64,000 nt of DNA from positions 496,001 to 560,000 of the forward strand of contig KQ965741.1 of NCBI GenBank assembly GCA_001574975.1, read 5' to 3'. The stretch is from Gonapodya prolifera JEL478 (taxonomy: Eukaryota > Monoblepharomycota > Monoblepharidomycetes > Monoblepharidales > Gonapodyaceae). Numbering within the stretch: position 1 is the first letter of the stretch; each line of letters opens with the position of its first letter. The notes beneath the pieces were generated by a model that was not told the DNA's origin, made no database searches, and worked only from the letters and a program-made list of their open reading frames with translations. Shown one piece after another: positions 4,812 to 64,000 of this stretch. The translations under genes and the position numbers were made by a program.

Positions 4812-7800
4812 ATGGCAAAGCGAAAATCGTACATAGAGCTTGCGGAGACGCTTGACCCATCGTCAGCGGATGATTATTCTCCCAAAGACAAGCTCGCTCC
4901 TTCCCGAGGGCAATCGCGGTCTGACCTGCGCCGGCTTGAGGTTCAAGGCAAATCACAATCCAAGACGCAACTCAAGGAGACGCGAGAAAAATGGATTGCG
5001 CGCGCGCTCTACACGTCCGTCACGCTCGTTGTTTTTCTCGCAGGAGCAGTGGTCGGACGATTTGGAACGTCTTTTGACACCAACCCATCTCCACCGGAAG
5101 CGGCAGTGGGACCCAGACCTGCAATAGCAGCTTCGAGCGGTCAAATTATTTATGCTGGCACACGCGCTTACCCGGTTGACTCCCTCATGCCCGTCGGACC
5201 TGTCAACGAAACCCGAGCTGATGTTTTCGCTCAAGTGGCATCAGCAAGCTCCATCGTGGAAGATTTTAATTGGCCCTACAATTACGTGTACGCCCCATGG
5301 CGGGCTACGCAACCGACAGGGCTCCCCGAAGCGGCGGGAAGCGACGACGGTTCATCGGCACATCAAGGAATCGCAATGAGACGACCCGGCTGGGTGGACG
5401 CGGCTATTGCGGCCGCAGAGACCACCCAAGTTGTGGTGACCGCCAATAGACGACAAATAACGAAAACAACCGCCTCAGGGGTGTACACGGCGCGGCGAAG
5501 GACTTCGTCCTCAAGTGCAGCTGCTTCGGCAACTCAAACACCACAAGCGTGCGATGTGGCGAGCGGCTGGATGGCTGGGACTGGCAGTTCCTTCACATGT
5601 GTCTGCGATGTAAGGAGATACGCTTGCACAAGCCTTGTTTTTGGTTTTCACCCTTCACACTCCACACCACGCTCGACCACTTTCACCAAAGTGGACCCGC
5701 GGCTTTGTCTACAACTCCGTCAAAAAGAACTGCGAAAAACCTTCCTGCGACGCGTCTGCCGGGTGGATTCCAGGAGTAACGTCGACAGGCCCTGCCTGCG
5801 TGTGCGACTCAGTGAACGGCTACCACTACGATGCCTCATCTCGAACGTGTATAAAAACAGGATCCTCGCCATCTTCCACCACCGAATCGTCGTCACCAAT
5901 TGCATCGTTCACTTCCCAAACTGTAGTTCCCACCAGTATTGCGACATCGACGAACGGCCGCTGTGGACCGGAGTTCAATACGAAATGCCCAGGCATGTGC
6001 TGCTCGCAGTGGGGCTGGTGTGGCTCATCTTCCGACTTGTATGTTACATAAGTACATCGCTTACCTTTGAAGATGTGTCTCATTCTCCTTCATTCGTATC
6101 AGCTGTGGCACTGGATGTCAAGAACAATATGGTATTGGTTGTAGAACGTTGTCTTCCGCGCCTCCACCTCCCGCTTCAAGTGCCCCTGTGAGTACTGGAG
6201 CTGGACCTGGGATCGTGATGTATATGCCTAACTGGAGGTGAGCCACCGTGTTCGTTCAAAAAGTCAATTCCGATGTCCTCTCTGGTCCTCCCTAGTGGTG
6301 ACATTACAACGATAGACCTCACAAGAATCAACGTCATCAACTACGCATTCTACAAATGCGGCCCGAATGGAGAAGTCTACGGGGTTGACAGCGGGCTCAT
6401 TTACGCACTCAACACGATTTCTAAAAGGAGGTACCCTGGTCTCAAGTCCGTCGTGTCCATTGGCGGGTGGACGGACAGCACCTACTTCTCTGTCGTTGCG
6501 AAAGATGCGACCAAGCGTGCCGCGTTTGTTTCCAATGCTGTGAACTTTGCAAATAACAACGGATTCGATGGAGTGGATATCGACTGGGAATGTGAGTGAG
6601 CTGCATCGTTACGTCATCTCAAATTGCACAATACAAGATATACTCTCCACAGACCCTGGGGGTGGAGGTGTGGATGGAAACACAGCCGACCCAAACGACG
6701 CCGCCAATTTCCTCCTGTTGTTGAAGGAGCTTCGCGCGGCGCTCGGTTTATCCAAATTTATCACAATCGCGGCCCCGTTTGACCCCACGTGCTACAAAAA
6801 CCTCTTGCCCCAATTTGTCCAGCTCCTGGATTGGGTGAATCTCATGACGTACGATATGTGCAATTCCTGGAATGGTGAGTCGATTTTGAGCGCCCTCTAC
6901 AGGCGATAGTTAAACGGCCTCGTTGCCAAGGTTTTGCGTGCTTCAACTCACCTTTGTACACTGATTCGACCGCGTCCTACGATTATGGGTCAGCTTCTTC
7001 AGGGGTTCAAAAGTATCTCAACGCTGGGGTACCAAAGAATAAACTGAGCATGGGTATCCCTTTTTACGGTGAATCTCGACGCGCTATCATAGTCTTTGAC
7101 TTGCGTGATTCATTCGAACCAATTGCAACAAAGGGTATGGAACATATGTTTCCTCATCTTGGAACAATGGGTTGCACGCGACCGCCACTGGCAATATTGG
7201 CCAGATCTCGTGGAACACGCTGCGCTCCGAAGGATATCTCAGTGGACCACTGACTGCCACAAACGGCTGGACGCGGACGTGGTGGGACACCATCCAAGGT
7301 CCATCTATCTTCAAAGGCAATCTCTTCATTTGTATGTTGAATTCCAGAGGAGAGCTCTTAAAGTTGTTTTGATGTGTATTTGACGCTTCATTTTGTTCAG
7401 GCTATGACGATCCCCAATCCATCCAGGGCAAGGTCCAATACGCAAAGAACGAAGGATTGGGTGGTGTTATGGTTTGGGAGCTCTCAGAGGACAACGGCGA
7501 GCTGGCAGAAGCGATACGACAAAACTGGAATGGTGGCTCCACAGCATCACTTCCGGAGACAAAGCTCATCGAATCTTTCCCCAAATCGAATGGCGTCTGG
7601 CAGCTCGCTTGGAGTGAAGATTTTGATTATGCCGGGGCTCCAGACCCTCGCTTCTGGAACCTGGTAAAGGGAGCTGGGACATCAGGTGAAATGGAACAGT
7701 ACACATCAGATAACGTCAAAGTTGAAAACGGAATGCTCGTCATAACGGCGACGCAAGGGAACAATGGATGGACAAGTGGTCAAATCACAACAAAGAACCT

Positions 7801-8323
7801 GCTTCACCTCAAGTATGGGCGCATTGAAGCGCGAGTAAAATTTCCAACAGGGTCAGGAACTTGGCCAATAGTTTCATTGGTGTAGGTTACAAATGAACGC
7901 CTTCTTGGAGGGACCTTCTCACTGCACGTCTGTGTGTTTAGCGGGACTTCGTCAGATTCTTGGCCTCCACAGGAGCAAATTGATATACTGGAGTATGCAG
8001 GGGATGGCAAAGCCAACGGGGCAGTGCAAACAAAGTCCTACTCCTGGCAGCTGGGGAACGCGCCGACGGGTTCCATAATGGTTGACGATTCGGGATGGAG
8101 TCTGTTTGCCGTGGAGTGGTTTGAGGATCGCATTGACTTTTACGGGAACGAAAAGCAATTTCTCTCAATTTGCAAAGTGGCACTGCAGGAAGAATGGCCC
8201 TTCGACGACTTCTTTTACGTTTCCATGAACCTTGCGATTGGGGGCTCACATGCAGGACCCGTGACTACTCTGAGTTCGCAACAGCTCCTTGTAGATTATG
8301 TGCGTGTTTACCAATCTGCCTGA
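4812..8323 (+). CDS. Membrane-anchored CBM18-GH18-GH16 wall enzyme (chitinase plus GH16 domain)
   Basis: Multi-exon gene. The start at 4812 opens a charged cytosolic N-terminus, then one hydrophobic segment (ALYTSVTLVVFLAGAVVG, about residues 63-80), so a type II membrane protein. The outside part begins with two Cys-rich repeats (CDVASGWMAG and CDASAGWIPG) and a CBM18 chitin-binding domain (CGPEFNTKCPGMCCSQWGWC, next exon CGTGCQEQYGIGC). A GH18 domain follows: YMPNW, SVVSIGGW, and the catalytic FDGVDIDWE at about 6560-6594, then MTYDM and KLSMGIPFYG. Exons at about 7400-8323 encode a GH16 domain (YTSDNVKVENGMLVITAT, QIDILEYAG, FFYVSMNLAIGG, VDYVRVYQSA). The residue at the GH16 nucleophile position is Gln (codon 7976-7978). 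Role inferred: wall remodelling, cleaving chitin and binding or joining chitin and glucan. Intron edges are approximate. Confidence 0.85.
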
Positions 8324-18178: not shown

Positions 18179-21100
18179 ATGATCCTGGGGGAAGGCAGTC
18201 GGCGGGAGTTGAGTGCTACCTTCCACCTGACTCACAAGAATTCGAACATGCAGCATCAAGACCAGATGCGGCGACAGCGGAAGACCAGGATGGGTTTTGA
18301 GAGGAATCAAGTCGAGAAGCTGCTTCATAGCGTGTAAGATATGGTCCGATCATGGAGTTTGATGCCAACTCCAACTGACAATTTTAATCCCCTCGATTCC
18401 ACCCAGATTGTATGCTCTCTGCCGACAGAACAGTCTTCCACACCAGATCGAATACGCTTTCTTCCTACTGGAAGATATTCAGCTCAGCGGATTCAGTTGG
18501 AATGCCATGTTCATCCCAGGACTCCCGCCTATTATCGAGACGATTCTCCGTCCCATATCTCTCGTGGTCAATTCATCTCAAGCTTTTGATGTTGCGTTTT
18601 GGACTGTATCGTGTGCGATTCTGTGTACTTGGATCCTCCTCGGTGTTGTGACATACGCAACGGCAAAAGGCGAATTCAAGGCGATTTGGGTGAGTCCCTT
18701 GGTTGTATCACTACGCACGAAGAGAAAAGTAATCTAGCTCTTTTTGGTAGCCTTTGCGAGCCATCAGATTCGCGGCGGCTCTCTTCGTAACATTCCTCTA
18801 CATTCCGTCTCTGGAAGTACTCCTGCACGCTTTCCGATGCCCACATACGAGCGGTAGTGCCTTAGTGCTCCCGTCCTGCCTTGGAACTTCTAACGAAATC
18901 GTATACGTGGTGGCCTCGGGGGTTGCCCTCGCTCTTCTGTTTTGCTTTGTAATGGTGACAAACTTGTACCTGATCGATACCGATCCAAAGTCGAGGTGAG
19001 GCGATCAAATTTGCTTTCGTCCGATGGTTCTAACCTCAAGGGAAGCAGCAATATATCCGCCCGAGTTTCTTGCCATTTCGATATCATATATGCACTTTTG
19101 AAAACATCAACTGTATTTGCGGATACGTTCGACGTAAGCAATAACCGTGTCACGGTCCTCGCTGTTGTATTCGTGGCGTCCACTTCTGCTGTGCTTATTT
19201 TGTTGTGGAGGCTTCCATATTTCCACCTCCGGACAAATGGCCTACGCGTCGGTATGTATTGAGAGCACATCCGTTGAAGCCCCTAGGTGCTAACGACACG
19301 GCGCAGGGACCAATATTCTTGGAGCTCTATCAGCCTTGATTGCCCTCTTCACCAACAAGTTTGCGGACCCAACTACACCTGCCTTTGGTTCTTTTGCACT
19401 GCTGGGAATCTCGGTTTTGATTTCCTACGCCTTCGGATACGCTGCAACTTATTACACCCAAAAATGGATCACCTTCTCCACCATAGACCTGTTACAGGCC
19501 AAAATGCGTGCCCGTAATGAACCGCCAGCAGCCCGAACTAATGTGAAACTGTCGTCGGTTATGGACCCGACGAATGCAGACCCCCAAAGCTCTCCGAGGA
19601 GTGATGCTGACAAGCTGGGAATGTTTAACCCCGTGAAGCAAGCAGTGGAATATGCCGTCGAGGCTGTGCGGGTTCTCAGCTACAGCTCGGGTGGAACTCA
19701 TTTGGAGCGGAAGTGCGAACAAGATCAACGCGACTCTATAGGTGTTCTGGAAGAAGCTGAGAAGATAATCAGGAGAAAGCCCAAAGTCGTGCTGCGAGTT
19801 TTTCGAACTCCATATCATGTGGAGGTAGGTATCATCAAGATAATAGAACAAAGTCTCAGACACGCTTACGCTGTGTTTATCAAATAGGTTGCAGCTCGTT
19901 TCATTCGCTCAAATCCTGATGCCAGTTCGCTGAAGCTGATGAGAATCGTATTCGAAGAAGGGTTATCGGTAAGCAGGCTTCACTCCACCCAAATGACTAT
20001 TTGCATCACTGACTCCATCGGCCTAGCAATACCCCAAGACTGCCTTCCTGCCTTGGGCATTTGCCAAGTACCTGAGTGCATTTGATGAGAACACGGACGA
20101 GTCTTTCGAAGAAATTCAAAGCCTCCTATCAGATGCAAATGAAATCAAATCAGGATATTCCCTGAGGTTTTTTATATTTACAACATTGGAAGCAGAGGCA
20201 ACCACACGACAAAAGGCTCAAGACCTGGGGACTACTGAATCCATCAATATCACAACCTTTGTCGAGTACTCCACTCTGGAAGTAGTTGCCAAGCGCTTTC
20301 ACAAAGAGGCTCTTCTAAGTCTTCGCAGATTTTGGGTGAATCTGGAGAACGTAAGTAGAGGGAATGGGGAAGTGAGGCATTACTTTTCCCATCTCAACTG
20401 TTCTTTCTCCAGGAAAAACCAAACCCGACGTTGATGACAAAGCTGCTCGAAGAGTTTCATATAAAGGCAGAGCGTGCTGGGACTTCGTACGCAAAGCTCA
20501 CTGAGCGCTTCCCCACATGCAAGCAACTTTTGCGACTTCATGGTGCATTCCTTTCTGGGGTCCGTGGTGATGTTCTCGCTGGGGCGATTTTGGTTTCTAA
20601 GGCTGAAGATGTGGAAGCACACCAAACAAGAATCGTATTTCGGCGCAAGTCATCAATCATACCTACATCGCAAGTTCTTGACGGCACTCCCGGAGACCCT
20701 TCTGCTTTTTCTGTGCAAGCTCAAGACACCGCCGATGTCAGTCAACCACTACCAGAAACTAGTACCAGCATCCTCTCACCAACTGTTACTCGGATGGACG
20801 TGATCAGCAATGAAAACGAAACTGAGATCCGCACATTGACTCAGTCTCCCGAGAAAGAATTGCTGCGGACCAGGTTTGGCAATGGAGAACCCGAAAAGTT
20901 GACAAGGATGCCCAGTGAACGCCATTCCGAGACCAGTGGCAGCTCTTTGAACAAGGATGCAAAGCGCCAACGACACCTTCACGATCTATTCCAAGCTCGA
21001 ATGCAGTCGCCACTCGTGACGCTGAATCGAATGTTTATCGCGGCAATGGTTATAAGTCTTGGATTGCTCGTGGCTAGCTATGTGGTCGGACGGCTTACCT

Positions 21101-23339
21101 TCGAAACAATATTCAACGATTTCAACAACACCAAGTCTTTCCGCCGGTGAGCATGCAAAGTTGGTTATATACATTGAACTTGGGGTAATGGTGCGCGATT
21201 TGCAGTGGCCGAACAAGCATCGCTGATGTGATTCAAGAAGTTCGTCTCATGACCACTTCCCTGTCTGCCAATGACAGGGCCGGATTTGACACACATCGGG
21301 CTTACGTCGTAGCACAGCAGACAAGTCTAAAAACGGGAATAGTTCCCGCATTCTTCGATGCTGTTGCTGCCGATACAAGGCGCGACTATTTTTTCGGAAG
21401 GTTATCAACCGTTGATGCAACCCAACCTCCGCTTATCACCTATACGGAGACGTCACTCTATGAGCTCATTCTGGAATGCACCGGTGGGTTGAGGACTGAT
21501 GATATCTGGGGTTTCCTTGTATTTTTGAGCAATTTTCCGTCACCCTTGACAGACGCTGTGAATGGCATCTTGGATCGGTCCTTTGCATATCTTCAAGCCG
21601 AAGGAAACGGACTATGGGATCCCGACGTGCACTTCTTCTTGTTCAATGGAGAGGTAACTATGCTCTTGGTGCGTTTCAATTTTATGTCATCTGACAGAAA
21701 CCCACGCAGAGACTCCCGGAACAGTTAAATGAAGGAATGGTTGTCGGTATTGAAAATTTCCTGGAGGTGCGATATGGTCCATATTAGTTTTCTTCCGATT
21801 AACAAATTGCACATGACTACAGACGATTGGAGGAAGCGTCCAGACCATTTGGGTCCTGCTTGGAACGCAGCTGGCGGCGACCGCGATAACGTTTATTTTT
21901 ATCTGGTTTTGGACGATCAGCAATTACGAGCGACGCGCGTTCACCGTGGTGAGTCTGGAGTCTGCATTTGAGCGGGAATGGTGTGGTGGAATGACAACTG
22001 AAATCTTGGTGTCAGATCAAGCTCCTAGCAAACATTCCACGACGGGGCAAGAAAACTATCATTGGCGATATCGACGAGTCCCTGGAGGCTTTAGCACTCG
22101 AGGAAGGCGACGGAGATGGAAACGGAAACTCAAGTATGACAGGCGCCGAGGAAGTTGCCGAAAGCGCGGATGCAGTGATAAGAAACGAAGACCACGAGTC
22201 GTCCTTTCGGGTTCCGAGGCACAAGATTCTCTTCCTGGTCGGGTGCATGTTGGCCACGATTGCAGGGCTGTCAATATTTTTACCTGCCATTCTGGAGGTG
22301 AGCACAAGCCAGACCAGTAAAGGAGCGTCTTTAATCTATTTGTGCGACTAGGTTGAATACATGTGCGGTCTCATTCAAGCGACCGAGAACGTCGCCAAGC
22401 AGCGCTACTACATCAGTCGCATCTTGATGCTAGCAACCGAAGTCGCCGTCGACGACACAACCGTGTGGAACCGCGGCGAGGCCGAAATGTACCTCATTCA
22501 TTCCATCGATGTCGCTACGACAGCCGCGGAGATCGTTCGCGTGGGACAAAATGGCGTTCCTGGCACGGACGATTTGCCGTTTCTGTACAACCAGCTTGTT
22601 GTAGGAGGAATTTGGTGCGTGCGTCTTTGGGAGTCGTGATTGGGTCATGTGACCTCATGCGTTGTGTTCCCGGTTGCGGCAGCAATAATGCTGCTGGCTG
22701 TAACTCTAACCGGACGTACAACGCGTCCATCGGACTGACCCCAGCCCTCGTCTACAGCGGTGTCGAAGAGGTGCGTGGAGACGTCCCTCCAAAGTGTTCC
22801 TATTCGTGTTCGAGTACCCTCGCGACTCTAACGTCCCTCGCACATGCACGCACAGGTCCAGCGCACGTTCCTTGTCCACGCGCGCGCATTCGCCACGGCC
22901 CCACCGTCCCAGCGCACCTTGCAAAACAGCGACTACATGCTCATCTATGCCATCTTCCGAGATCTCGCGGCGGGGCTGACCAACGCTTACAACCCAATGT
23001 TTAACCTCGGTACGTTTTCCGCACACACGCGCCCCTATCGCCACACACACCGTCTCACCGTTTCGTTCTGCCCACTCTATCACTGCAGGCGTGGCCGCGC
23101 ACGACCGCTCCACCGCCGAACTGACCTGCGTCTTCTCTCTCGCCATCATGCTCCTCCTGTGCAACTTCCTCTTCATCTTCCGCCGCCTTGTGCGTGACCT
23201 GTCGGGGCAGACCGACGAGCTTGTCGGTATTGTGTTCGCGGTGCCAAAGGCGGTTGTGCAACCAGGGTCGCCACTGGCGAAGTGCATCGAGACGGGCGGG
23301 TTGTCGGTGGAGATGGCCATGGAGGATGCGAGCGTGTAG
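18179..23339 (+). CDS. TmcB-like large multipass membrane protein
   Basis: Resembles Dictyostelium tiny macrocysts proteins B/C and their many chytrid homologues, which combine an N-terminal membrane domain, a TPR-like region and further helices. An N-terminal exon (MGFERNQVEKLLHSV) joins LYALCRQNSLPHQIEYAFFL and EDIQLSGFSWNAMFIP.. with several helices (CAILCTWILLGVVTYA; LFVTFLYIPSLEVLLHAF; VASGVALALLFCFVMV; VLAVVFVASTSAVLILLW). The TPR-like block reads VAARFIRSNPDASSLKLMRI, then FEEGLSQYPKTAFLPWAFAK and SLRFFIFTTLEAEA. Later exons hold more helices (MFIAAMVISLGLLVASYVVG; FLVGCMLATIAGLSIFLPAI; LAIMLLLCNFLFIFRRLV) and end EMAMEDASV at 23339. About 15 introns. The exact start is uncertain; the ATG at 18179 is one of several in frame, and a T-rich acceptor-like tract at 18128-18146 suggests a further 5' exon. 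No PAS or cyclase domain is visible. Role probably sensory or signalling, by analogy only. Confidence 0.75.
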
Positions 23340-24985: not shown

Positions 24986-25067
24986 GAGCAAATCAAAGAC
25001 TAATTCACAAATAGTATGTGTCCAACATCTCAATTCATGCCAGGTGCCCAAAGTTCATACCCTCAGT

Positions 25068-25960
25068 TCATCTAAAGAACCCATTCTCTGTCTGCTCTCT
25101 GCCTCTGCAGTCTTCCTCTATCTTGGTGATTGCCTTCACTAAGAGCTCCGAGNNNNNNNNNNNNNNNNNNNNNNNNNNNNNNNNNNNNNNNNNNNNNNNN
25201 NNNNNNNNNNNNNNNNNNNNNNNNNNNNNNNNNNNNNNNNNNNNNNNNNNNNNNNNNNNNNNNNNNNNNNNNNNNNNNNNNNNNNNNNNNNNNNNNNNNN
25301 NNNNNNNNNNNNNNNNNNNNNNNNNNNNNNNNNNNNNNNNNNNNNNNNNNNNNNNNNNNNNNNNNNNNNNNNNNNNNNNNNNNNNNNNNNNNNNNNNNNN
25401 NNNNNNNNNNNNNNNNNNNNNNNNNNNNNNNNNNNNNNNNNNNNNNNNNNNNNNNNNNNNNNNNNNNNNNNNNNNNNNNNNNNNNNNNNNNNNNNNNNNN
25501 NNNNGTTCGCAGAGGGGCAGCGGCTCTGCGCCAGATATCCACACCCAAGGTGGACTTGTCAGTATTGTTGTGAAAACGGGAAGCACCGAGAAAGTTGATT
25601 TCTCGGCACCTGTCTTTGACTAGGGGGATGACAAGGATGCGGTGGAGTGCAGCCTCGCTGGTGTGGGAAGGGGCATTGAGGATTGTTCTCAGTGCCATAC
25701 TTTGTGTCTTTTGGTAGACACGTTGAAGCTGAAAGTCAGGCTCCCTCAACTCCATGCCATATTCCAACACTGGGCGCACAAATGTCTTGTAAACATTTGC
25801 TGCAGCTGCTGGAGCCCACCCTGTAATGTTCATACCCACTGGTCTCATCATGTGCACCACCTTTTTTGCCTTTTCACATCTCTCTCTGCAAAGAGCAGTA
25901 AAGTCAATGCCATTTTTGGTGAAAGGGTAGCCAAGGTATGGTGCATTTGCTACAGTGCCA
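25068..25960 (-). mobile_element. LINE (non-LTR retrotransposon) reverse transcriptase fragment
   Basis: On the minus strand the frame reads NAPYLGYPFTKNGIDFTALC, then CEKAKKVVHMMRPVGMNITG and ANVYKTFVRPVLEYGMEL. This is the C-terminal part of a LINE-type reverse transcriptase (thumb/after-palm region, with VRPVLEYG). After the gap the same frame continues weakly (SELLVKAITKIEEDCRGREQ) and stops at about 25068. The 5' two-thirds, including the YADD core, is missing. I found no target-site duplication or poly-A tail. The 352-base gap (25153-25504) lies inside it. Confidence 0.7.
25153..25504. other. Assembly gap (352 N)
   Basis: Run of N inside the LINE fragment, most likely a scaffold join across a repeat. 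The gap length may be an estimate. Confidence 0.99.
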
Positions 25961-46638: not shown

Positions 46639-49224
46639 TCAAACACTCATGTCTTTCAACCTCCTCGCAACCTCCTCAAATGTGGGCCTCAGTTTGGGCT
46701 CTCCATCCCAGCACTCCTTGACGAGTTGGTGTAGGGGTTCAGGCATCTTGTCGGACTTCTTTATCATTGGGCGAAGCTCCTCCTCAATGATGTTCCGATA
46801 CAGCGCAATGTCGGCCATACCATATTCACTGTACGGGGCGCGACCAGTCCATATCTTTTAAATACGTTGCAATAAGTCCGAAACATCAGCTTGCACATGT
46901 AGGACAGGTCCTCTCACCCGATACGCTGTGATGGCAAATGCATAAACATCCCCTTCCTTTGTTGCTCCTCCTCCTTCAAGTCGCTCCGGTGGCATGTAAG
47001 CTGCCGTGCCTGCGCGATGCCCCGTTGATCTTTCAGGTGGGACCGAGAGAATCTTGGACGTTCCAAAGTCGGTGACGCGACATGTTCCATCGTTTTCCAC
47101 GAGAACATTTTGAGCTTTGAGGTCAGCATGGATGATATTACGAACGCTGTGCAGGTAGTGCATCCCTGCTGCAATATTGTGGATCTGTGAAAGGAGACGG
47201 TTATGAATCCAACAGCTCTGAAGATCGCACCTCTTGCCTCCTTCATCCCACGCCGCGACGTCACACTCACCATCCTAAGTTTGTCAACTTCAACTCCACG
47301 CTTCTTGCATGATACCAAGTAGTCTAGAACGTCTCCATTCACCATATAAGGGGACAACATCAAGGGTTCAGGCGAGTCCCATGAGGCTCCAAGAAGAGGA
47401 ACGACGTTTGGATGGTATCCTACGGCGTACCAGGCCGACACCTCTTGAAAGAAAACCTTCAAGCCTTTGAATCAGCGTGACACTGTCGGAGACAAAAAAA
47501 AACCTTTGGCCCAGAGGCCAGAGGGCTGAAACGCTCACGTCTTTGAAAGAGTCACGAATTGCTCCACTTTCCACCTTCAAGTACTTGACCGCCACTTCAG
47601 CCGATGCCCATTCACACTTGTAAACAATTCCAAAACCGCCTTCACCCAATTTCTCGCCCGGACGAATCCCACGATAGTCGACATGCCACATAGGTATTGT
47701 GCCATCGCTCGAGGAATGTGTAACATGCGAGATGTTTACCTCTGCAACGCGGGTAACTTGATGCGCCATGGCTTTTCCTTTGGTGTCGTCGCCTTCATTC
47801 GGTTCCTCTCCAAGATGGGTCTTGAGCATTTTCAGGAATTCTAAATTGTCCGACTTGCCAGCAGCAGCAAGAACTGGGTCAGAAACAATGGCGCCATGCT
47901 CCAAGAGGAGATTCAAGATCTCCAGCTTCGGCTGCACCACAATGTCCACCTCCACATAGCTCCAACCTGCTGGATCCACGAGCATAACTTTTCCACCTTT
48001 TTTGTTGATTTGGAGTTTAGAAGATAATATATCGCGGGTGTCACCATTGTTATAATTGGTATACTTTGCGCCTCCTCGACCCATTGCAAGTGCAAGGGGA
48101 CTTGGAAACGAAAAAGTCCATATCCAGCGATACTTATCCCACCTTTCCCGATCCCAATCAGAAGTAATATTCGAAGTTTTCCACTTCACGTGCTCATTGG
48201 GATCAGCGCCCTTCTCCAAAAGTACCTTGACGATAGGAGTGTGGCCGTGCAAAATTGCGAGTGTTAATGCTGACTCGCCATCAACTGTGTCCGTCTTGAC
48301 TTCTTCCATTTCCTCATACTTATCGGAGAACACAAACCAGGCCTTTTTTATGAGTCGCTTCTCCCGTAGTGTCACTGAGAGCGTGGCCGACTTCTTTGCA
48401 TTGGGATTTGCCCCTTTGTGTAGCAACTCGGAGACCTTTTCCAGATCTCCAGCCTCCACCGCCTCAATCAGTGAGAAGTCGCAAGACGTTTGCGCCTCTA
48501 AAAGTTGTCCCACTGGCTCACTCGTGGCCGCTCCGTCCAAATTCTTATCCTCTTTCACTTCCTCTCCAAGATGCGTTTTCAAAGTTTTTAGGAATCCTAT
48601 ATTCTCTTGCTTCCCAGCAGCAGTAAGAACCGCGTCAGAAACAGTGGCTCCGTGCTCCAAGAGGAGAGTCAAGATCTCCAGCTTGGGGAGCACATCAATG
48701 TCCACCTCCACATCATCCCAAGTCTTTGGATCCACGAGCGTAACGCTTCCACCTTTCGCATTGATTTGGATTCTCGAGCACTTTATATCTAGGGTTTCAC
48801 CGTTGTTATAGTTGGTACTCTTCTTGCCCCCTGTTGCCATTGCGAGCGCAAGGGGGCTTGGAAACGAAAAGGTCCACACCCAGCGATACTTTTCCCACCT
48901 CTCCTGATTCCAATCGGACGTCATAATATCTGATGTTTTCCATTCGACAAGCCCATTGGGATCGGCACCTTCCTCCAACAGGGCCTTGACGATTGAAGTG
49001 TGGCCATACAATATTGCGAGGGTCAATGCAGATTCGCCGTTGATGGTGTCCGTCTTGACTTCTCCCTCGTAGTGATCATCAGGTTTCTCTCGGAGGGTTG
49101 CTGAGAGCGTGATCGACTTCCTCGCGTTTGCGTTCGCCCCATCCCGCAAAAGCAACTCGCCCACTCTCGCCAGGTTTCCTTCCTCTATGGCCTCAATGAG
49201 CGAGAAGTCGGCAGAGGTTGCCAT
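46639..49224 (-). CDS. Ankyrin-repeat TKL-type protein kinase
   Basis: The ATG at 49224 (MATSADFSLIEAIEEG) opens exon 1 (47538-49224). It encodes two tandem modules of about 250 residues, each with DFSLIEA-E-G-L, NGESALTLAILYGHTSIVKA-type ankyrin units, ERWEKYRWVWTFSFPSPLAL, a TNYNNG segment and a closing PKLEILTLLLEHGATVSD unit. A kinase domain follows: GEKLGEGGFGIVYKCEW, EVAVKYLKVE, NVVPLLGASWDSPEPLML, GMHYLHSVRNIIHADLKAQN, TDFGTSK, GTAAYMPPERL, EIWTGRAPYSEYGMADIALY and RPTFEEVARRLKDMSV, ending at 46639. Three short introns interrupt the kinase part. The catalytic loop is HAD in place of HRD; Lys, Asp and DFG are present, so it is probably active. Partner or input unknown. Confidence 0.85.
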
Positions 49225-49829
49225 CGTCTGCCCTTCCCCCAGTTTGCGAGTGTTATCTCGTTGCAATCGAGACCAAATGAACACGGCGGTGCCATGGCCA
49301 ACCCCGATCACCGAAATTCCCAGTTCATTGGCGGATTGATAGAGAAAGAAGAACGAGGTTGGATGGGGTGGTAACAACTTTAATGCATTGTATGGAGTGT
49401 ATTCGTTCTTAACCGCAACGAGACCTGAGAAGGGTTACATAATAGTGATCGTAATCCATACAATTTAGCGATTCGAAAACCATTGGTTTTGATTTTGACT
49501 TGCTTTGATTTCCTTAGAAAAGAGCAGTTCATGAAATGGTTTAGTCACGAAACTGAAGAACTACAACCTGAAACTGCCGGTGAATCCAGATAAGACAGCG
49601 CTCGCTCCCCCGTATGTACCAGTCCTTCCTCATTCCGTTTCGACCCAGACACCAGCGTTTGATCCGTCGCTCCATGTACGGAACTCGATGCCAGCCCGAC
49701 ACTTGGTCCATTCGACGCGAAACGGATGCTGGAATCGTTCTGGATAGGAAGACGGCCCGTCCTGTTGTCCCAAGGGGGGACCGTGAGTACCGTTCCTGGC
49801 GGACCAGTGGCCCCTGGCGCTGCTAAAAC
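49225..49829. other. Intergenic, no gene seen
   Basis: Promoter side of the ankyrin-kinase gene followed by non-coding sequence. Short frames on both strands (for example 49614-49826) show no conserved features. Confidence 0.35.
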
Positions 49830-58804: not shown

Positions 58805-61358
58805 TTAAATATGCCCAGCCACCCTTCGAGGGGTGTACGCATCCTCCAAGAATTTGACTAGGAGCGAGAGGCGGCGTTACAATCCCTCCACCTTACAAAA
58901 GACCCAAATCACTCACTTTCGTCATCGTTTAGCTTCACTTCGAGCGCGCCAACCAAATCGTCAATGTATCTACCGCACCGCCGTTTTAGCATGACTGTAT
59001 CCTCGGACGCAGCACATAATGGGCACTCACTTCGTTTTCGAGACTCCCACAATGGGCGAAGTGACGTAAGGTTTCGTGTACCTGTATCAGGTGTTTCAAC
59101 TGTCACTTCAAACCGGCTGCGACAGTAATAAAGTCCGTCACTCACATCCAAGCAAGGGCTACCTGCGACGGCGTCAACTTCTTCTTTTCACTGAGCTCCA
59201 CGCATCGATCCACGACAACGTCCTCGGTTGTCTTTGACGTCAAATCAGGCCTGCTTCAGTGCCTGCACACACGCCCAGGAGGCGGACAAGGTGCGACCAA
59301 CCTTGATAAAGCGCTTGATCCCCGGATCCGTGGTCACCCGAACACTTTGCCTGTTTTTCCCTGTGAGGACACCTCGGGCGAGGGGAGACCAAGGAATCCT
59401 GCATTGCGGATTGCGTTAGGGATTACATTAGAGGAGAACGCACAGCACGGAGAGGACCGACATTCCGACGCCTTGGTCTTGGAGGAGCTTCAAAACGAGA
59501 CGTTTAGAAAATGTGTCATGAGCTTGCGAAGCTGGTGCACTCACAGGGATCATTTCACGCTCTCTGCGCGGTCAAGAGAGTAGTCGGCATTTGAGCAAAA
59601 CAGTGGCCATTCGCAGAAGTCACTTACTCCTCCCTGTTGTGAATCACAAGGTCAGTACGTAGTTTGGTGAGATGGTCACACGAAAAGAGCATCTACCCAC
59701 CGGTACACTGAAAATTGAAGAGCCGAGGCATGGACAGAGCTCAGTACGATCCCGGTTTACGCATTGAAATCAACGAGGTCACTCACGCTTTGTCAAAAAC
59801 GAAGGGGAAAGGGAAATAGAGGTTCAGTACTGAAAAGGTGAAGCACAAATGCAATCCTGCAACGCACCCTGTGGAAAGATCAAAGATGAAGGGAGTTGAG
59901 TGAGGTGCGTGAGCCCACACAAGACTTACACTAGATAGTGCCGGTTGTCACGCCACACCGAGAGACAATCGGGTGTTCAGATTGATTCCAACGGATGCTG
60001 TGCAATGCACTTACGCTGTTAGGTGGATTTTAGTCAGTAATGAGCAGGAGAAAGCAATTTAGCCCATACGTACATTGTAAAAGTTTTGCTGCAAGAAACG
60101 GGACCACAAAGGATCAATCAGTTCGCGGGCGCAAACGATTCTCACGTGATTGAGATCTCAGCATTTACCATCGACACAAACGGAGTCCACCCGTTCAATT
60201 TCGCAGTGTACTGTGCCTTGGAGAATTGCCATGCGTACATGGAGGACGCGCCCAGGTAGCGGACTTTGCCGATCTGTATGGTGCATGTGCACGTTTGTGT
60301 TAGTGATACTCAAGCCAAGCGACCGCACAAGAGAGAAATTGCTCACTCGGACAAGATCGTCCAGCGCGCGCATCGTTTCTTCGATGGGGGTTTCGTTGTC
60401 GTAGCTACGGGTAGAGGGTCAGTGAAGGAATAGGAATTGTAAAGAACAGGGAAGAGGCGTAGTTACCGGTGGATTTGGTAAAGGTCGATGTAGTCCGTGC
60501 CTAGACGCTTGAGCGAGCTTTCGACTTCCTAACATCGGGGATGTTGGGATTTTCTAAAGGGCTGGAGGAGGACACGTGGGCGATGTTGAAACGCACTTGC
60601 ATGATGCACTGTAGAGATAGGGGGTTAGGAAGACAGAGGTCACGCAAACGAGAAGAACAATCACCTTCCGCGACAATCCTCCACGGTTCATGTCAACCAC
60701 GCCAGGACGCGCGGCACCGAATGCACGGTATCCGATATCTGCACAATATGGAGTGAGAAAGTCATCATTCAGCCCGTCTCCGTCTCCAATTCGTACCCTC
60801 GGGATATATGGATGAGAACACCTTGGTGGCGATCACAACACGGTCGCGTGGGATGTTGTACTTGGTGAGCGCGTGGCCGGTGATGATCTCGGAGATTCCG
60901 TTGGAGTAGACGTTGGCCGTATCCCCTATCGGGACCGGATATCCCGTCCAAGAAGTGACGGGGGCACGGCTCCGTACATCCACCTACAGAAATTGATTCC
61001 GCTGTCCCACTTTCCCCCATTTTCTTTAGCCAGCCGCGCCAAAAATATACGTGCTGTCGCTACTCACGGCGTACTTAATGATGGGCAGGGCGTCTTCCTC
61101 TTCGATGACCCATTCGGCCCATCGCTTGTCTCCGTACGACATCATCCCGAGGGTAAGACGAGACACCTGAAGCAATCTGGATGAGATCGCACGAAGTAAA
61201 TGAGACGGCACGCGTGGAACCCGCCTGGAGTCCCGTCTTGCCAAGTCTCACGCTTCGGTGAACGACAGTGTCAGATCGTTCCCGTGGATGCTTCTTTCTC
61301 GCTGTGCCACTCACTACTTCATTTTCTCCAAATTCTTCTGAGCACCCGAATCGGCCAT
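58805..61358 (-). CDS. Aldo-keto reductase, 24 exons including four of one nucleotide
   Basis: NADPH-dependent aldo-keto reductase of the YajO/aryl-alcohol-dehydrogenase-like type. I traced 24 exons: 61315-61358, 61225-61252, 61068-61166, 60988-61009, 60797-60925, 60665-60738, 60597-60608, 60467-60528, 60347-60404, 60169-60273, 60074-60088, 60015, 59930, 59868, 59787, 59701-59707, 59628-59633, 59545-59563, 59462-59487, 59302-59398, 59146-59222, 59031-59081, 58917-58969, 58805-58857. They sum to 1041 nt (346 residues), the family length. Motifs: [34 protein letters not shown] (catalytic Asp/Tyr), [10 protein letters not shown] (catalytic Lys), [13 protein letters not shown] (catalytic His), [54 protein letters not shown] and [14 protein letters not shown] with TAA at 58805. 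The intron 61167-61224 begins GC. Nothing in it looks decayed. Confidence 0.85.
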
Positions 61359-61796: not shown

Positions 61797-64000
61797 TCAC
61801 TCAGCGTCGAGGACTTGAAGTTCTCCGGAAACGCCCACCATGCCCTTCCCGCCGCATTTTTTCCAATCCTGGACTGCATCTCGCACTCTCTTGAACCCAG
61901 TTTGTACCATCTTGGCAATGTTCACCTTGGACTTGTGACTTAGTTTCCACATGTGAACTTTCCCCAAATGCTCGACATTTTCGGGCAGCGAAGGCACCGC
62001 TGTTGTTCCCGAGGAAACACTCGTGGTGTTTGTCGCACTATCGCCTTCTTCGCCTACACGAACGGCAGTCCTGTCCGAGCCGTGGGACGCAGCCCTGTTC
62101 GGAGACACCACGGTGCTCGCGCTCGGCTCTTTCATCACAACGTCTCTTCCTGGCATGCCAGGCCCCACCGCGATATCGGGCTTGGACCATTCCTTGCTTG
62201 ATCGGCTGCTCTCCAGTGTCATACTGTCGTCCATGTCCACATCCTCTTCCTGCACTAAACCCGCAACCATCCGCTCTTGCTCCAACACGCACTGCGGAGG
62301 CTCAATGCCCAGCATGCCAAACATGGCTCTCCGAATCGCAAAGAACTGAACGTCCAGGTCGTCAGACGTCATTTCCGGCGAAACACCGTCCTTGTTGATC
62401 GTCCAGAACCTCCGAAGTTCGACCGGAAGCTTCGCGGGTGGCGCAAACGCACTTTCGACCGGTGTGGCCGCAAGCACGCGTGGGTTGTGCGCTGTCGGAT
62501 ACCACGTATCCTCAAACGCGGGGACGCCTGCCAGGTACGGATCCTCCAACAGTTCACCCGCCGTGAGCCGCCCGACGCTGCGTGGGTCGAGCATCTTCTC
62601 GGCGAACCGCCTCGCAGCGGGGCCAACGTGCTCAGAGTCGACCCACTCGAGGGGTCGCTTCTCCAGTCGCAAAATTTCGTTGTACAGCTTTCGTGGCGTT
62701 TGCGAGCGCTGGAGGGGTGCAAAGGAAGAATGTAAATCGAAGGCACCTCATGGCAAACAAACAACTCCAAAAAAGCACTCACGAAGGGGAAGAACCCAAC
62801 CAACATCCCGTACATCACGACTCCACTCGCCCACAAGTCGCTCCATCCACGCTCGGCGAGGTATCCGCCTCGGTCTGGGAAGATGGCCGTCTCGAGAATC
62901 TGGGGAGAGCTGTAGTTGATGCAGCCGACTGGCTCGTGCAGGCGGACCGTGGGATGGTAGAAGGCTGCGTCAGGGTATGAGTCGAATTATAAGACGAACG
63001 AATGGGGGTGGAATCATATGTGTCGAACTCACCCGCGAGGTTGAAGTCGATGAGCATGATGCGAAGGGTCCTACAAGATGACAAAGGCAGTGTCAGCTAG
63101 TGAGGGGGCTAGTGTAATGCACTGCAGGGCTCACTTTGGGTCGATGATGATGTTGTCGAGCTTGATGTCTCGATGGATCACACGGTTGGTGTGCATGTAG
63201 TCTGCAGGAGCAGGCAAGTTAGAATCGCGTAAACGTAAAGAGTATAAGCTCCCGCATCGCGACGTACCGAGCGCCCTCAGCAACTGCTTCATGATGATCT
63301 TCACTTCGGGTTCGGGGAGCTTTCCGCCCCGCTCGCGGAGGAAGTCAAAGAGCTCGATCCCGTTCGCCCGCTCCATGAACGTGTGGAACATGCGGTTCTC
63401 GGTGTCAAAGACACCGTCGTAGATCTTGACGATCGATGGGTGACCATACTTGACATGGCACGCGGCCTCAAGTCCAGGGAACGTCGGGTGGCTCCTCGAC
63501 AGGTGCACCAACGTAGTCAGCTCGCGGATCACGTAGAGGAACTGATGCCTGTTCTCGTCGTTGGCGTCCCACTCCGAGTAGGGCACAACCTTGGACGATT
63601 TGAACACTGCGCGCACGTCCCGCCCGCAGCTCGCTATGCTGGTGGTGGCTTCACCGACGGAGGCGAAGGCGCCTTGTCCGAGCGTTTTGCCGAGAGACCA
63701 CTGTGAGAAGTGTGTGGAGAGAAGATTGGGAAGGTGAGTTATGATACGGGACGAGTGTACGCAAAGGACAAAAAATGATACGCAAGATCCCTTCCTTCGC
63801 CCTCGAGTGGAGAAGGTGGTGGGGAAAGTGGGGAAAGTGTATCGAGAAAATGGACTACATATTCCGAAATCCAAGCATTCCTCGCACGTCCGGAATTCCA
63901 GCGTGGAAAACAATTCCCATTCCTTAATTTCGCTTTTCCAATCCGTGCCGAGAGCGTCCGCGTGTTCATTCTCGTTTTGGTTCCGAAGGTTTCCGGACTC
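61797..64000 (-). CDS. Ser/Thr protein kinase, 5' end beyond the window
   Basis: Partial at its start: the frame is open to the window edge (ESGNLRNQNENEHADALGTD), so the first exon lies outside or at the edge. After an acceptor at about 63702 comes WSLGKTLGQGAFASVGEATT, VRAVFKSSKVV (ATP-binding Lys), IRELTTLVHLSRSHPTFPGL, IVKIYDGVFDTENRMFHTFM and KIIMKQLLRALG. Later exons give VIHRDIKLDNIIIDPK, TLRIMLIDFNLAG, CINYSSPQILETA, DLWASGVVMYGMLVGFFPF and FAEKMLDPRSVGRLTAGELL. A long disordered C-terminal region follows and ends with a basic helix (KSKVNIAKMVQTGFKRVRDA) and LQVLDAE at 61797. The activation-segment motif is DFN, not DFG. Introns are short. A CAMK/Snf1-like relationship is plausible but not certain. 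Confidence 0.8.

Follow-up and report, generated by a model that had tools for sequence, protein, structure and literature searches.

A probable run of four consecutive one-nucleotide exons in an intron-crowded aldo-keto reductase gene of Gonapodya

The minus strand of the window (the whole stretch of DNA that was analysed, 64 kb in length) carries what is probably an intact, intron-crowded aldo-keto reductase (AKR) gene in which four constitutive exons, each a single nucleotide long, follow one another. These four exons are probably real, and we infer the use of their splice sites. It also seems likely, with slightly less confidence, that a leucine codon is built letter by letter, five short introns being placed at consecutive inter-nucleotide positions so that a one-base ratchet would yield CTGC. 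The features concerned are given here in the direction of transcription.

58805..61358, minus strand: aldo-keto reductase gene, 24 exons, 349 aa; hand model identical to free spliced alignment, PF00248 match of 261 bits
60597..60608, minus strand: exon 7, another microexon of this gene, 12 nt; hand model and spliced alignment
60074..60088, minus strand: exon 11, 15 nt, CAAAACTTTTACAAT (QNFYN), ending in AAT; sequence, hand model and spliced alignment
60016..60073, minus strand: intron 11, 58 nt, GTACGT...ACAG; sequence and parses
60015..60015, minus strand: predicted exon 12, single C in AG-C-GTAAGT, codon position 1 of the first Leu; parses and spliced alignment
59931..60014, minus strand: intron 12, 84 nt, GTAAGT...CTAG; sequence and parses
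59930..59930, minus strand: predicted exon 13, single T in AG-T-GTAAGT, codon position 2 of the first Leu; parses and spliced alignment
59869..59929, minus strand: intron 13, 61 nt, GTAAGT...ACAG; sequence and parses
59868..59868, minus strand: predicted exon 14, single G in AG-G-GTGCGT, codon position 3 of the first Leu; parses and spliced alignment
59788..59867, minus strand: intron 14, 80 nt, GTGCGT...AAAG; sequence and parses
59787..59787, minus strand: predicted exon 15, single C in AG-C-GTGAGT, codon position 1 of the second Leu; parses and spliced alignment
59708..59786, minus strand: intron 15, 79 nt, GTGAGT...TCAG; sequence and parses
59701..59707, minus strand: exon 16, 7 nt, TGTACCG; sequence and spliced alignment
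59628..59633, minus strand: exon 17, 6 nt, GGAGGA; sequence and spliced alignment
59545..59563, minus strand: exon 18, 19 nt, the end of REEEREMIP; sequence and spliced alignment

At all four sites a single base stands between AG and GT with a full intron on each side, and the bases read C, T, G and C in order. The eight stretches quoted in the original prediction agree with the DNA in position and flanks, and its seven intron lengths (58, 84, 61, 80, 79, 67 and 64 nt) are correct. The in-frame join that it proposed reads QNFYNLLYREEEREMIP, giving N-L-L-Y-R-E-E-E. Its statement that the frame is lost when the four bases are skipped was borne out by a subset test for the case in which exons 16 and 17 are kept. 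The bases are needed for the frame as a set; any one of them alone also restores it, with one residue fewer.

The gene model is complete, with a length of 1050 nt including the stop and all 349 codons open. The original prediction had the 24 exons right, but not the length, for which it gave 1041 nt and 347 codons. The predicted protein is a member of the aldo-keto reductase superfamily (PF00248, matched over profile positions 1–288 of 291), for which reductase activity is predicted, and it shares 49–55% identity over nearly its full length with bacterial homologues (the best 80 of 418). The introns are crowded: 23 within 1.05 kb, or approximately 22 per kb, with seven of them splitting a coding span of just 17 nt. 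Gonapodya, a chytrid, is the most intron-dense fungus in one survey, at 4.5 introns/kb, according to the part of that source drawn on here (PMC8476143). The 27 undisputed introns of three genes in the window measure 56–80 nt; 16 belong to the AKR gene and 11 to two neighbours, the latter having been read by hand with an unsure donor for one. Intron 2 of the AKR gene (61167–61224, minus strand) is apparently of the GC-AG type, with donor GCGGGT.

Alignment to family members had been proposed originally as a check on the spacing of two residues at this motif, and all 80 bacterial homologues aligned (the best 80 of 418) agree with it. The FVSMQNFYNLLYREEEREM...WSPLARG stretch is gapless in every one of these sequences, which by record title include Actinomycetota, Chloroflexota and Proteobacteria and are rich in Streptomyces. 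Of the two residues after N, the first is Leu (79) or Ile (1), and the second Leu (53), Ile (14), Val (12) or Met (1). A strict text pattern matches 77 of the 80, each with three residues before Arg, and the other three are gapless by alignment. Two residues, the first always Leu, are likewise found in the five PDB alignments listed out of 84 matches; two of the five look like one and the same protein. This spacing calls for four bases to lie between AAT and TGTACCG, namely a Leu codon plus base 1 of a hydrophobic one. The PF00248 profile itself does not discriminate, with 261 bits for the two-Leu protein against 260.9 for a one-Leu version. A search of viral contigs for relatives gave six pattern matches, none of them a relative, and 1884 plasmid records with a match were left out of the spacing count.

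Alternative parses of the block were enumerated with up to 13 nt inserted and a splice score above −60 bits, which gave 687 parses, 215 of them in frame; intron density and intron length are charged for in these scores and in those of the alignment, the interior shuffles and the matrix comparison. The four-base parse ranks first of the 687 with 60.1 bits, followed by one at 43.1; the best parse with one single base reaches 34.4 bits and the best without any one-nucleotide exon 33.6, all scored without an extra charge for the rarity of such exons, and an independent per-exon charge at their known rarity would reverse the ranking. Two considerations led us not to adopt this charge: the AG-N-GT sites have to be accounted for, and short exons of 6, 7, 12 and 15 nt already occur in the gene. 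The main splice matrices and the profile columns derive from the AKR gene itself. When the frame is ignored and splicing starts from the donor at 60073, the use of zero to four single bases scores −11.3, −8.6, −6.4, −5.1 and +4.7 bits, respectively. The whole gene, from start codon to stop codon, was also put through a spliced alignment that permitted any GT/GC-AG intron of 45–800 nt (328 donors, 126 acceptors) and took its residue scores from the 80 homologues with the query excluded. It recovered the 24-exon model exactly, with no additional one-nucleotide exon. Gene length was not wholly independent here, since the query defined the column layout of the profile. Four consecutive one-nucleotide exons are the top reading under every scoring tried.

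Chance is no explanation for the four AG-N-GT sites within 366 nt. In 20,000 dinucleotide shuffles of this stretch one site occurred in 363, two in 2 and three or more in none, and Poisson extrapolation from the shuffle rate gives approximately 5e-9 for four. When the interior was shuffled 5000 times with its ends fixed, a chain of four one-nucleotide exons was possible in 2 instances, at −57 bits or lower compared with the observed +4.7, and the best 4-nt insertion of any kind reached −9.1 bits. The window contains 12 AG-N-GTRNGT sites on its plus strand and 8 on its minus strand, exons 12–15 making up four of the latter; 30 window shuffles gave a mean of 6.6 and a maximum of 11, which the plus-strand count slightly exceeds. 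The remaining 16 occurrences are scattered, and no further run of one-nucleotide exons with 40–120 nt spacing was found in the 64 kb.

The original prediction of four one-nucleotide exons in an intact gene is partly supported: it has the best score and the family spacing behind it, but there is also a simpler in-frame parse, left unmentioned in it, that reads N-V-L-Y-R. Here exon 11 would be extended to AATGTAC, with donor GTATGG at 60069, and a single intron of 362 nt would end at TGTACCG, the AG-N-GT sites being disused or relics of introns inserted into an intron. Frame and protein length are kept in this way without a microexon or any exceptional exon size. How far the parse trails depends on the splice matrices: by 26.5 bits with those of the AKR gene, by 17–20 (19.8 or 16.8) with those from all 27 introns, and by only 5–8 with those from the 11 neighbour-gene introns (8.2, or 5.2 if 10% long introns are allowed). 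We consider it unlikely, as the intron would exceed the longest of the 27 undisputed ones more than fourfold, Val is the first residue in none of the 80 homologues, and the four regularly spaced sites would stay unexplained. Donor–acceptor pairs spaced 200–400 nt apart number 140 versus 163 expected, or 54 versus 58 when only the nearest acceptor is counted. A 4-nt exon, TCTT (59924–59921), is an example of how other small exons could supply the bases, with the reading N-S-L-Y-R; it becomes the top parse if exons below 2 nt are barred under a cruder scoring with a flat 6 bits per intron, which is too low a charge for its margins to be used. Such a solution is barely credible, however, given 20.5–25.9 bits where the main model reaches 43.3–60.1 in six settings, and Ser at the first motif residue in none of the 80 homologues.

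The use of one single base only would give N-L-Y-R with C 60015, T 59930 or C 59787, and N-V-Y-R with G 59868, in each case one residue fewer. All four versions are in frame and stop-free with an unchanged Pfam score, yet none of the 80 aligned homologues lacks a residue at the motif, three AG-N-GT sites would be left unexplained, and the two cases scored are 13–26 bits worse, according to the matrices used, and would require a 286-nt or a 307-nt intron. The one-base, one-Leu version obtains 627.4 in the spliced alignment versus 653.5 for the full model, and we regard single-base use as very improbable. Only a little less remote is the idea of a gene that is not expressed, has died recently or is frequently mis-spliced at this block, in which case correct mRNA would be rare and the arrangement an accident without selective effect or a cause of mRNA decay. 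In its favour, 43 of the 64 subsets of exons 12–17 lose the frame or hit a stop, and 20 of the 21 subsets that are in frame and stop-free change the motif. Against it stand the 349 open codons, the 23 introns with usable sites, and the degree and length of the match to the 80 bacterial homologues.

If the four single bases are indeed exons, intron definition is the most likely route, since each intervening intron has its own donor, branch-like motif and acceptor; introns of 58–84 nt would each be recognised across themselves and excised singly. The splicing machinery can hardly occupy an acceptor and a donor at the same time when a single base separates them, and intron removal should therefore be stepwise. 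Each step would append one base to the growing exon and expose the next donor, much as in a recursive-splicing ratchet, with one letter left behind each time. After four rounds this would have supplied C-T-G-C, the first Leu codon and base 1 of the second, within the conserved NLLYREEEREM motif, and the final product would be identical whichever end is spliced first. Intron definition, stepwise and recursive modes cannot be distinguished by sequence alone. Weighing against the reading, the distance from the best branch-like motif to the acceptor is 46, 41 and 51 nt in introns 12, 13 and 14, and 8–31 nt in 15 of 16 undisputed introns, as found with untrained motif weights.

Recursive ratchet points are of zero length, leave no base and divide long introns, whereas the sites in the AKR gene would each leave one coding base and their introns are short. 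What recursive splicing (the subject of PMC5126111 and PMC2773006) and the AKR block appear to share is the juxtaposition of acceptor and donor and, presumably for the AKR sites, stepwise removal. Stwintrons, as described in portions of four reports (PMC9024468, PMC6616335, PMC8469720, PMC7138796), resemble the AKR block in being compound intervening sequences removed by consecutive splicing reactions. In a stwintron, however, one intron sits inside a splice element of its partner, while each AKR intron has complete sites of its own. The stwintron-like nesting entertained in the original prediction thus fails, as donor and acceptor are uninterrupted in all five introns.

An introner-like, repeat-derived origin of the introns was also considered. 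The best-scoring pair among the 23 AKR introns reaches 20, below the 21.3 that the best pair averages over 30 shuffles, and a search for intron copies elsewhere in the 64 kb gave no hits with E < 0.03 other than the introns themselves. Copied introners are therefore unsupported within the window, in the lack of mutual similarity among the introns.

That one-nucleotide exons are known singly in a plant gene, as was originally put forward, is outdated: in the parts of the literature drawn on here they are described for APC11 and VPS55 in plants and for CYP621A in Fusarium (PMC8831610, PMC12940212). The accompanying view that no run of four is known is in line with the literature search, which found no run among the matches listed. 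The single-nucleotide exon of Arabidopsis APC11 is constitutive and frame-essential, as shown by cDNA and by base substitution in reporter genes (Guo and Liu 2015, PMC4674806, in part), and like the AKR sites it consists of one base between AG and GT. The CYP621A exon was found because frame and family motif demanded it (Nelson and Syed 2026, PMC12940212, in part), and it too lies inside a conserved motif in a genome of short introns. Each of these is a lone exon, within a stretch of 422 nt in APC11 (PMC4674806) and of 139 nt in F. graminearum, where SRA reads support it (PMC12940212), whereas the AKR gene would have four in a row, 61–84 nt apart. The plant VPS55 microexon of 1 nt is conserved, has a GTRAGT donor and is supported by RNA-seq and RT-PCR; it is again single, and the nearest approach to a run in the part of that report drawn on is a rice transcript with adjacent exons of 5 and 12 nt (PMC8831610). 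In organelles, placozoan cox1 (PMC5436844) and fungal rnl (PMC12308204) have one-nucleotide exons, with adjacent introns one base apart as in the AKR gene, but these introns are self-splicing ones of group I or group II according to the portions drawn on, and those of the AKR gene are read as spliceosomal.

Single one-nucleotide exons being known already, what would be new here is the extreme run. Minimum exon size and the joint use of sites one base apart are old questions in splicing, which a natural gene of this kind would open to direct test. If the reading is true, an exon would need no length of its own, and one base would suffice even for neighbouring exons. Since every base would mark a particular splicing step, the sequence of steps could be read from intermediates. 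A conserved codon would be splittable at every internucleotide bond, which would bear on intron gain, and annotation pipelines would have to permit exons of 1 nt.

Rfam and tRNA scans of the 64-kb window gave no matches. A run of N lies within about 25015–25620, and 352 bases are undetermined across the window as a whole. In a domain scan covering 20 of the 787 listed open frames, 46917–49434 (minus strand) holds ankyrin repeats followed by a kinase match in another frame that is just below the cut-off (22.4 of 23.1 bits), perhaps constituting one ankyrin-kinase gene, and a TmcB TPR repeat match at 20359–21147 (plus strand) is barely under its cut-off (25.4 of 27 bits). These two observations tentatively suggest a zoosporic fungus. 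The gene at 5960–8320 (plus strand) apparently joins three domains: chitin-binding (under the cut-off), GH18 chitinase and GH16. The seven introns read in it by hand measure 56–71 nt. A protein kinase gene adjoins the AKR gene on the same strand (62500–64000, minus) and is without its crowding of introns, as four, of 64–74 nt, were read there.
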